Positions 20,416-22,793 of a stretch of DNA of 64,000 nucleotides are shown here, one piece after another. The DNA comes from Psychroflexus aestuariivivens. GTDB taxonomy: Bacteria; Bacteroidota; Bacteroidia; Flavobacteriales; Flavobacteriaceae. The number at the start of each line of letters is the position of its first letter. Positions within the stretch are counted from its first letter, which is position 1. Below the pieces are notes generated by a model, which saw only the letters and a program-made list of their open reading frames with translations, was not told the origin of the DNA and did not search any database. The translations under genes were made by a program, and so were the position numbers. The stretch covers positions 124,001 to 188,000 of the forward strand of contig NZ_RQVT01000061.1 of NCBI RefSeq assembly GCF_004010055.1, read 5' to 3'.

Positions 20416-21714
20416 ATGAAAAAAGATTTTATAGAAGAAGTCACTTGGCGTGGAATGATTCATGATTTTATGCCTGGAACTCAAGAACACCTCAACGAAT
20501 CTTCCAGAGCGGCTTATGTCGGCATAGACCCCACTGCAGATTCTTTACATATCGGACATTTGGTTGGCGTCATGTTGTTGCGTCATTTTCAATTGGCAGG
20601 ACATAAACCTGTAGCTTTAATCGGTGGTGCAACAGGAATGATTGGTGATCCGTCTGGAAAATCTGAAGAGCGAAATCTGTTGGATGAATCCACATTGAGA
20701 CACAATCAAGATGCCATCAAACTTCAGCTATCTAAATTTTTGGAATTTGACAAAAACCAAGATAATGCTGCCGTTTTGGTTAATAATTACGATTGGATGA
20801 AAGATTTTTCGTTCCTAGATTTCATTCGTGATGTTGGCAAACATATTACGGTGAATTATATGATGGCGAAAGATTCCGTAAAAAAACGTTTGTCTAAAGA
20901 TGCCAAAGAAGGCATGAGTTTTACGGAATTCACCTACCAATTGGTACAAGGCTATGACTTTTTACATTTGTACAGAAGTCAAAATTGCACTTTACAAATG
21001 GGCGGCAGCGATCAGTGGGGAAACATTACCACTGGAACAGAAATGATAAGACGAATAGACCAAGGCAAAGGTTTTGCCCTGACTTGTCCACTCATCACCA
21101 AAGCTGACGGCACGAAATTCGGCAAAACGGCAACTGGAAATATTTGGTTAGACCCGAAGAAAACTTCGCCTTATAAATTTTTCCAATATTGGATCAATAC
21201 GAGCGATGAAGATGCAGAGAAATTCATCAAAATCTTTACGTTTCTATCCAAATCTGAAATAGAAGAATTGGTAAAAACCCACCAAGAAGCACCTCATCAA
21301 AGATTATTGCAAAATAAATTAGCAGATATCATAACTGAAACAGTACATTCGGCTGATGCTCTAGAGAACGCTAAAAAAGCTAGTAATGTTTTGTTTGGAA
21401 AAAGTACAGGAGAAGATTTAGCAGAATTAGATGAAGATACATTTTTAGATGTTTTTGAAGGCGTACCAATGAAAATTTTACCGAATTCTATCTTGGAAAA
21501 CGGATTGGATATGATTGCCGCTCTTTCTGCTGAAACCGGGTTTTTAGATTCCAACGGTGAAGCGAGAAGAGCTTTGAAACAAAATGCAGTAGCCGTTAAT
21601 AAGTCAAAAGTTGACGAAAACTTTAAAATTGAATCCAAAAATCTAATCAACAATAAATACGTACTCATCAATAAGGGAAAGAAAAATATGTATTTGATTA
21701 AGTTTGAATCATAG
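20416..21714 (+). CDS. tyrS: Tyrosyl-tRNA synthetase
   Basis: Class I aminoacyl-tRNA synthetase charging tRNA-Tyr. The 432 residues show HIGH at 45-48 in the Rossmann fold, the tyrosine-binding [10 protein letters not shown] at about 194-203, and KFGKT at 234-238, the form of the KMSKS loop normal for bacterial TyrRS. A C-terminal S4-like RNA-binding domain starts near residue 365 ([13 protein letters not shown]). Promoter and terminator are both visible, so it is a single-gene unit. Its terminator is followed directly by the first small-RNA unit on the other strand. Confidence 0.97.
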
Positions 21715-21744: not shown

Positions 21745-21774
21745 AACGTCTTGAAATCGATTCAAGACGTTTTT
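21745..21774 (+). terminator. Intrinsic terminator of tyrS
   Basis: AACGTCTTGAA and TTCAAGACGTT form an 11-bp stem with a 5-nt loop, followed by TTTTTGG. It lies 30 bp after the stop codon. Confidence 0.85.
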
Positions 21775-21779
21775 GGTTT

Positions 21780-21856
21780 TAAAACGATAAAGCCCCGAGT
21801 TTGAGACTCGAGGCTTTACCTAACTAACCAATCTATTATGAAAAAACTTCATCCTG
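21780..21856 (-). ncRNA. Small RNA, copy 1 of a tandem pair
   Basis: A minus-strand unit of about 75 nt. The promoter has an exact -7 TATATTTG at 21867-21860 with TTG 19 bp upstream. The transcript begins near 21856 and contains a small hairpin (ATGAA/TTCAT). It ends in a 12-bp stem (arms 21806-21817 and 21789-21800) followed by a T-containing tail. In the stem one position is a G-U wobble if transcribed on the minus strand but a C-A mismatch on the plus strand, which fixes the orientation. Copy 2, 332 bp away, is identical across the promoter and leader except for one base. A flavobacterial structured-RNA family such as Rfam Flavo-1 is the first thing to compare; I cannot confirm membership. 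Confidence 0.7.
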
Positions 21857-21859
21857 ATG

Positions 21860-21889
21860 CAAATATAAGACACATAATAAATCCTGCAA
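21860..21889 (-). promoter_or_regulatory. Promoter of small RNA copy 1 (TTG-N19-TATATTTG)
   Basis: On the minus strand TTG at 21889-21887 precedes the exact -7 element TATATTTG (21867-21860) by 19 bp, the ideal Bacteroidota spacing. Confidence 0.75.
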
Positions 21890-21897
21890 GCTAAAGT

Positions 21898-21922
21898 AAT
21901 GTTAAAAAGCAATAAAATTTAA
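21898..21922 (-). repeat. 25-bp element upstream of small RNA copy 1
   Basis: A stretch of 25 bp lying 30 bp beyond the -7 element is identical to one at the same distance in copy 2 (22230-22254), whereas the 30 bp between differ widely. On the minus strand it includes TTTATTGCTTTTTAACATT. Position and AT content suggest an UP-like element or a regulator site. Confidence 0.65.
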
Positions 21923-22111
21923 TTTAATATATAAGACCCTGATTAATAAATGCTTGAAAATGTTAATATACATTTGTATTGCTTAATGAGTTTAAAAAAA
22001 GCTTCGTATTGTTCAATTAAGGAAGGGGGTGAAAATATAAAGAAATCAGACTTAAGACAATTGTAGTGCTAAAAGGTTTAATTGCTGTTCAAAAATTTTC
22101 TTGAATTTTTT

Positions 22112-22188
22112 GAAAAAATTAAAGCCCCGAGTTTTGAACTCGAGGCTTTAACTAACTAACCAATCTATTATGAAAAAACTTCATCCTG
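22112..22188 (-). ncRNA. Small RNA, copy 2 of a tandem pair
   Basis: Second minus-strand unit with the same layout as copy 1. The -7 element TATATTTG is at 22199-22192, the leader differs in a single base, and the terminator stem has 13 bp (arms 22137-22149 and 22121-22133) with a 3-nt loop, followed by AATTTTTTC. The same G-U pair is present on the minus strand. Its terminator tail is better than that of copy 1. The triplet at the -33 position is TTC rather than TTG, so basal strength may differ. The transcript would end 256 bp before the copy 1 promoter. Confidence 0.72.
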
Positions 22189-22191
22189 ATG

Positions 22192-22221
22192 CAAATATAG
22201 AATAGTTTATCTATACTGGAA
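22192..22221 (-). promoter_or_regulatory. Promoter of small RNA copy 2 (TTC-N19-TATATTTG)
   Basis: The exact -7 element at 22199-22192 is preceded, 19 bp upstream on the minus strand, by TTC where copy 1 has TTG. Confidence 0.65.
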
Positions 22222-22229
22222 CAATAATA

Positions 22230-22254
22230 AATGTTAAAAAGCAATAAAATTTAA
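22230..22254 (-). repeat. 25-bp element upstream of small RNA copy 2
   Basis: Identical in all 25 bp to the element at 21898-21922 and placed at exactly the same distance (30 bp) from the -7 element. Confidence 0.65.
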
Positions 22255-22316: not shown

Positions 22317-22793
22317 TTATTTTAAATCATTAGGTTTCTGGTCAAATTTTCTAGTATCTTCTTTAGTTAATACTTTAAAACTATCTGTTCTGGTCATTTG
22401 TTCTAAAGATACCAAAAGATGATGAGGCAATTCTGTAAGTTGTCGAGAAGTCAAATCAATCCAGGCTCCCATCATTTCACATCTTGCACAATTTTTTCCA
22501 TCTTGATTATAGATATTATGTTCAAACTGGAAGAACATTCCGTTTTTACTCAAACCCTTCAATTCCAAACTAACTCTAACTTGATCTTCTGGTTTCAGTT
22601 CTTTAAAATAATAAATGTGTTCATAGAATACAATCGGACCTAAATTCTCTTTGACTAATTCTGCTTGCGAAAAGCCACTTTCAGTCAAAAACGCCATTCT
22701 CGTATGGCTCATAAAATTTTGATATGAAGAATTTGCCAAGTGTCGATTTGCATCTAAATCGCTCCACCGAATTTCAAAATTTTTTAAATACAT
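22317..22793 (-). CDS. Acyl-CoA thioesterase, hotdog fold (YbgC/4HBT-like)
   Basis: The 158-residue protein has a single hotdog domain. The N-terminal block FEIRWSDLDANRHLANSSY carries the Asp that acts as catalytic residue in the 4-hydroxybenzoyl-CoA thioesterase/YbgC group, and the core helix follows. It should hydrolyse an acyl-CoA thioester in the cytosol; the acyl chain is unknown. It is the last gene of the surE operon, 2 bp after the small membrane protein gene. The small-RNA pair lies immediately downstream. Confidence 0.85.
   Translation of the reverse strand: MYLKNFEIRWSDLDANRHLANSSYQNFMSHTRMAFLTESGFSQAELVKENLGPIVFYEHIYYFKELKPEDQVRVSLELKGLSKNGMFFQFEHNIYNQDGKNCARCEMMGAWIDLTSRQLTELPHHLLVSLEQMTRTDSFKVLTKEDTRKFDQKPNDLK

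Follow-up and report, generated by a model that had tools for sequence, protein, structure and literature searches.

Between tyrS and a thioesterase-like gene of Psychroflexus aestuariivivens, two closely similar units lie one behind the other on the minus strand, and the question is what this pair encodes and why it is present twice. The window in which they lie, the whole stretch of DNA analysed here, is 64,000 nucleotides long. We propose that both units would encode one trans-acting sRNA of the 75-80 nt or so expected from the sequence for each transcript, tandemly duplicated at an old locus that converges with tyrS, and that, on mRNAs encoding exported or surface proteins, this RNA would most likely pair over or just before the AUG, blocking ribosome entry in the manner of FopS in Bacteroides thetaiotaomicron. 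We give this explanation as a whole a probability of roughly 0.58. The features concerned are the following.

20416..21714, plus strand: tyrS (tyrosyl-tRNA synthetase), an ORF convergent with the sRNA genes; Pfam PF00579 and PF22421 over cut-off
21745..21774, plus strand: hairpin resembling a terminator, with a T tract, downstream of tyrS, seen in the sequence and distinct from the sRNA terminators
21781..21859, minus strand: very probable sRNA gene, downstream copy; covariance model 83.6 bits, E 5.7e-12, this copy being a member of the model's own alignment; fold z -5.11
21781..21820, minus strand: terminator hairpin and short T tail, downstream copy
21821..21846, minus strand: conserved core, downstream copy
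21860..21867, minus strand: TATATTTG -7 box, downstream copy
21898..21922, minus strand: repeated block AAATTTTATTGCTTTTTAACATT, downstream copy, part of the 146-nt repeat
22113..22191, minus strand: very probable sRNA gene, upstream copy; covariance model 87 bits, E 1.4e-12, likewise a member of the model's own alignment; fold z -5.16
22111..22152, minus strand: terminator hairpin and T tail, upstream copy
22153..22178, minus strand: conserved core TTTTTTCATAATAGATTGGTTAGTTA, upstream copy
22192..22199, minus strand: TATATTTG -7 box (sigma-A type of Bacteroidota), upstream copy
22230..22254, minus strand: the same block AAATTTTATTGCTTTTTAACATT, upstream copy, part of the 146-nt repeat
22317..22793, minus strand: thioesterase-like gene, upstream and on the same strand as the sRNA genes; Pfam PF13279

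A preliminary description had seen two minus-strand units, 332 bp apart within 21780-22199, each with TATATTTG, a near-identical stretch and a terminator, and this holds: the units share 48 identical nt (8 of the TATATTTG box and 40 more), after which one T/G difference is followed by 13 more matching nt. The entire repeat measures 146 nt at 84% identity (21777-21922 and 22109-22254), which, given the 332 bp spacing, means that the duplication takes in the promoter region as well as another block lying further upstream. This A/T-rich block of 25 nt, identical in both units, ends about 30 bp before the -7 box, and may possibly be a site for a regulator or an UP-type element. The shared promoter that had been suggested does not exist as such, each unit having its own, both of one type. 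Read on the minus strand, the terminator stem of either copy is GCCUCGAGU/ACUCGGGGC with a U-G pair where the plus strand has C/A, as first noticed, so that this pair fixes the strand, and the T tails point the same way. The stems do differ in length and loop, being 17 bp with a loop of 3 and 15 bp with a loop of 5, and the T tail has six T in the upstream copy and just four in the downstream one. A match to the 26-nt core within three mismatches was found in none of 100 shuffles of the window, and none of 200 shuffles folded as stably as either unit; the units are therefore not a product of chance, and we are highly confident that they are real sRNA genes.

The anatomy would then be that of a promoter, a short 5' hairpin (AUGAA/UUCAU, weak and of 5 bp in the window's RNA), a constant linker AUAAUAGAUUGGUUAGUUAG and a rho-independent terminator. 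Within two mismatches, the core occurs in 21 of 100 related genomes, the window's own counted, and in 19 of the 27 of the genus. A further scan gave 49 stretches, from Psychroflexus, Mesonia, Salegentibacter, Haloflavibacter, Mesohalobacter and other Flavobacteriaceae, Bacteroidia or Bacteroidetes records. We collected 66 copies, or perhaps 65, because L040 and L045 have 50 bases in common where two contigs end and may be a single copy; three of 69 pattern hits, having no core or no terminator (L028, L053+7263, L054), had been excluded before all counts. Across these copies the terminators vary widely and the 21-22 nt core hardly at all: it reads TTTTT(T)CATAATAGATTGGTTA in 61 of 66, one more deviating solely by a seventh T, with five T in 32 copies, six in 33 and seven in one. 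In an alignment of 41 Psychroflexus-type sequences, all 12 terminator pairs show double changes, 90.8% of cells are paired, and the covariation score of the whole structure is 0.419 against 0.187 when shuffled. The 5' helix of the same alignment shows no double change, though 98% paired; double changes appear in two of its five pairs in a wider alignment (A2) that was itself fitted to the structure. Since termination alone can maintain a terminator, its covariation is evidence for the end of a transcript and not for a function. The comparison supports sRNA genes on the minus strand: conservation outside this genome and structural covariation across relatives, whose absence would have refuted the preliminary reading, were both found.

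In the 3.1-Mb genome (64 contigs), the gene is present in four copies, namely the tandem pair, one about 1 kb before the start of the window (C11:122918-122994), and one on another contig (C25:79825-79890, = L185:9474-9497, IMGVR_UViG_2881759385_000001), which is without the C of the core. The latter locus shares 3,023 identical bases with a 54-kb IMG/VR viral contig, and directly follows a phage replication/recombination module: eight of the nine frames searched ahead of it match PHROG families, among them RecE-like exonuclease, NinB, helicase, replication initiation and DNA methyltransferase, which is why we consider this copy to be carried by a phage region. Positions C11:122960 and C25:79856, considered as target sites, were rejected, both being these further sRNA copies. 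Tandem or clustered copies were also seen in other species (L061, L043, L046, L062, L050, L035 and L081:3775-4131, the last of which holds three sRNA copies in a row).

How old is this locus? A covariance model built from the 41-sequence alignment (R1) matches 102 of 397 Flavobacteriaceae genomes and 80 of 237 genera at E<=0.01; the E-values are rough, and some weak matches will be chance. The position of tyrS provides a check independent of these scores. When each of the 30 top-ranking genomes is represented by its best match, tyrS is at the site in 27 of 30 loci, and in 24 of 27 once three of the genus are removed, which shows the sRNA locus to be old. It is present in 71 of 107 loci, many of which overlap, and, among 50 loci, it is convergent with the sRNA in all 29 that bear it (28 of 49 places, as L320 repeats L198); in the other 21 it was not found within the flanks examined. 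The thioesterase gene, by comparison, adjoins the element solely in loci of the window's own genome (107 loci), in keeping with the independence from this gene that had been claimed. Divergent members keep the linker UUGGUUAGUUAG or a near variant ahead of the terminator, and often swap the 5' part for other hairpins, e.g. UUAUGAA..UUCAUAA. A second model from a wider set (R2) matches 41 of 395 genomes of the order at E<=0.001; five of its 23 loci with new identifiers (L320-L342) are at tyrS, one of them L198 again, and its remaining weak matches look like linker-sharing siblings or chance. Near 1500 in L326, L332, L333, L342 and L324, UUUGGUUGGUUAGUUAG or a similar sequence stands before a terminator with no tyrS in the flanks, and these elements are probably siblings with a common linker. 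In our judgement it is very probable that the window's pair arose by tandem duplication of an sRNA gene at an old locus convergent with tyrS. The age of this locus, the four copies and a sequence antisense to start codons all go beyond what had been described before.

The promoters are of two types. TAnnTTTG is given as the consensus of the Bacteroidota sigma-A promoter, and a CGT box at -10 as the ECF-sigma type (SM6) of Flavobacterium psychrophilum, in the accessible part of PMC9723704. In the last 30 bases before AAGTTTTT, TAnnTTTG occurs in 46 of 63 Psychroflexus-type copies (4% in shuffles), a type assigned by the core that includes some copies from other genera, and in none of 29 divergent copies; these counts omit three copies cut by contig ends and two divergent loci counted already. 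Conversely, TGTAAk-N13-20-CGwC, a motif that had been noticed beforehand in part of the sequences counted, occurs in 22 of 29 divergent copies (0.1% in shuffles) and in eight of 63 Psychroflexus-type copies (0.05% in shuffles). Both window copies have a canonical TAnnTTTG-type promoter, and the ECF-like motif is absent from both. By eye, the tandem copies of L062 have one promoter of each type, of which the pattern scores the TAnnTTTG copy alone, since the other reads CGTA; the two types make the dosage or condition specificity that had been suggested for the window's pair plausible, and the two units may, as also suggested, have related targets. The motif of most divergent relatives suggests an envelope or stress response, under a putative ECF sigma factor. 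In our proposal, most of these relatives would be driven from an ECF-sigma-like promoter and most Psychroflexus-type copies from a housekeeping one, and extra copies exist. A fuller history, in which an ancestral tyrS-convergent, ECF-sigma-driven sRNA of Flavobacteriaceae would shut off translation of exported and outer-membrane proteins by covering their start codons, and in which Psychroflexus rewired it to the housekeeping sigma factor with a new seed, tandem duplication and a prophage copy, can be offered tentatively.

What would such an RNA pair with? The sequence of its 5' half is reverse complementary to what a start region typically looks like, CUAACUAACCAAUCUAUUAUGAAAAAACUU, and for that reason pairing at the AUG appears most likely. 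We examined this on gene starts taken as the first ATG of open frames, with signal peptides called by a crude rule. The single genome to give a genome-wide positive result is one with the divergent type (G221; 654 gene starts from an 800-kb sample). In shuffles with UUCAU fixed, the true value was reached by two of 60 shuffles for the ten best duplexes and by none of 60 for the forty best, and none of 60 reached either the count of duplexes at -17 or lower or the preference for signal-peptide-like gene starts. As a control, internal regions with the whole seed shuffled gave a null result (10, 19, 25 and 12 of 40). Evidence to the contrary is that the mean over all starts was ordinary (8 of 40 shuffles), and that the linker alone, on the 60 bases before the start, gave a null result (12, 27, 9 and 47 of 60). 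The Psychroflexus seed gives the same signal-peptide preference on these starts (0 of 40), so this preference is not confined to an RNA tested on the genome it comes from, and that seed is otherwise null there (7, 10 and 7 of 40). Furthermore, the susC starts of eight divergent-type genomes (15 non-redundant of 26, 11 near-duplicates being dropped in one test) are more complementary than any of 100 shuffles, with either all of the seed or the linker alone shuffled.

For the window's own genome, the whole 5' region beats fully shuffled seeds on 736 starts (2, 1 and 0 of 60). With GAAGUUUUUUCAU fixed and the linker shuffled, nothing clear was left (19, 24, 26 and 8 of 60, the first of these for the ten best duplexes), and a further test gave 23 of 40. 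In regions upstream of starts 95 of 100 shuffles did as well, signal-peptide-like genes were not preferred (48 of 60; 35 of 40), and the divergent seed gave no improvement over the genome's own. A 23-nt target pattern within three mismatches matched the sRNA copies alone in the whole genome, so that long target sites were rejected, and SusC as a Psychroflexus target is unsupported, 31 susC starts of the genus being no better than shuffles (34 and 40 of 100). The start of the thioesterase-like gene (22793) forms one of the better sRNA duplexes, at -18.9 kcal/mol, which may be chance. Separately, a conserved 5' UTR block near TTTTGGCRTTGGCTAATTCAAATAAA, found before one susC-type gene in several genera (L303-L305, L308, L309, L314, L315, L107), resembles the sRNA linker in the sense direction. 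The start tests thus lend some computational support to blocking of starts by the divergent type, and for the Psychroflexus type the only argument is the anatomical one. We put the chance that members of the family pair with start codons of envelope messages at a little short of even, and lower for the window's copies.

These results also bear on whether the RNA pairs with messages at all. The linker UUGGUUAGUUAG stays largely constant despite a changing 5' stem and terminator, and sibling-like elements away from tyrS have mainly linker and terminator in common, as would be expected of a decoy that titrates an RNA-binding protein; the lack of a target set in Psychroflexus, and of an upstream signal for the linker alone in G221, fit this as well. 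However, such a decoy would not account for a signal in G221 that lies at start regions and not in internal ones, nor for the complementary susC starts of eight genomes, and we regard it as doubtful.

Is the proposed start-blocking RNA a known one? No Rfam family reached its threshold in the 64-kb window. Flavo-1, likewise an RNA motif of Flavobacteriaceae, membership in which the preliminary description had raised as a question, has no match at threshold there, nor any up to E 10 in a 601-bp search. Rfam searches on 18 loci of other members returned nothing at threshold either. A plus-strand match to sar, the window's best E at 0.00055 (30 bits against a cut-off of 43), was set aside as similarity of the terminator stem, and other families gave weak matches under cut-off at most. 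The literature matches listed include the FopS paper and the F. psychrophilum transcriptome but no title that names this RNA linked to tyrS; the search did not extend to most subscription journals, nor to preprints and supplements for the most part.

The closest likeness is to FopS, which, according to the part of the report seen (PMC11697453), blocks translation of a susC message in B. thetaiotaomicron at the start codon, consists of a single-stranded 5' stretch and a terminator, is found in 12-15 copies in Bacteroides, and is also present in phage. With it the window's RNA shares the multicopy nature, an expected length of about 70-80 nt, a seed antisense to the AUG region, the terminator, the presence in phage and, in the window's copies, a housekeeping-type promoter. 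In contrast, there are four copies here rather than 12-15, most divergent relatives carry the ECF-like promoter motif, and the locus is convergent with tyrS, an arrangement that the accessible part of PMC11697453 does not mention for FopS. As to the layout, the terminator is present, and the 5' part, described as single-stranded in FopS, contains the weak 5-bp hairpin here.

Could the RNA be a Flavobacteriaceae branch of FopS by common descent, repressing SusC-type transporters? The FopS model (RF04319) aligns in register to the upstream copy (UUUUUCAU..UAGAUU..GGUUA), at 19.9 bits and E 0.27 (106 bp, all Rfam), and the similar layout, the copy among phage genes and the complementary susC starts of the divergent type would all fit such descent. 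Yet this score falls far short of the 56 bits that Rfam sets as gathering score, and, searched against the whole genome at E<=0.1, the model misses all four copies. Its sole match there (L286, C11:193482-193545, E 0.017) lies antisense to where the frame of an exported-looking protein begins (MKNTFLLFSF...), which suggests that FopS-like models can detect start regions from the opposite strand. R2 in turn weakly matches five of 12 FopS loci that are over cut-off (best 21.5 bits, E 0.062 in 64 kb), with a different register in both of the alignments shown. Moreover, an RRM_1 protein (PF00076, RbpB type) was absent at E<=0.001 from all 25 genus genomes searched, some of them incomplete, with Bacteroides ihuae as a positive control, and the Psychroflexus susC starts are unenriched. 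In view of the score, the genome-wide model search, the R2 registers and the lack of RRM_1, we do not file the window's RNA as FopS, and consider such descent unlikely. Four loci of other orders (L277, L285, L288, L289), picked as hits of the FopS model below its cut-off, match R2 at E 0.00019 to 0.0012, and may be a bridge to FopS or a parallel invention. At these four and at L282 and L275, a TTTTT(T)CATAG..TTAGG-like sequence with a terminator is seen near position 1500 of the locus, downstream of genes, in other Bacteroidota; these are possible 3'UTR-derived RNAs antisense to start codons. Judging from the protein ends, the genes at L285 and L282 look like efp and rpmF.

MicA and RybB are sigma-E dependent sRNAs of enterobacteria, and by description the divergent members resemble them in having an ECF-sigma-like promoter and in possibly repressing envelope proteins at the translation start; the window's copies differ in being without the ECF-like motif. 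Within the family Flavobacteriaceae, Rfp11 of F. psychrophilum is listed, in the part of PMC9723704 available, as an sRNA under an ECF-type promoter (SM6, CGT box) that is conserved in other species; the likeness is again one of description, and identity with it is a lead alone.

That the units are mere repeat DNA or a terminator following tyrS, making no RNA of their own, could be argued from their usual convergence with tyrS and from a stem that could stop transcription on both strands. However, tyrS already has its own hairpin and T tract, the promoter motifs, T tails and G-U pair are all those of the minus strand, and copies away from tyrS also have promoter motif, core and terminator, which makes this very improbable. 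A leader or micro-peptide gene, in which ATGAAGTTTTTTCATAATAGATTGGTTAGTTAG would code MKFFHNRLVS, is hardly credible and was rejected in favor of an RNA gene: the exact ORF with its ATG is kept in 24 of 66 copies, but about half of the copies break it (five T for six shifts the frame in 32 of 66, one copy has seven T and one is without the C), the core is identical with no synonymous change in 30 six-T copies, and the divergent members shown mostly have no ORF.

The base-pairing sRNAs of Bacteroidota that we found described mechanistically come from gut Bacteroides. An sRNA at a conserved locus in many genera of Flavobacteriaceae, with no Rfam match at threshold, would offer a tractable regulator from outside the gut, and the family would show an apparent switch of promoter type and seed inside one bacterial family. 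It would also make testable whether surface proteins are controlled phylum-wide by start-codon-directed RNAs. If the ancestral, ECF-driven reading is true, Bacteroidota would have an equivalent of the sigma-E/RybB circuit, one that works without RbpB.
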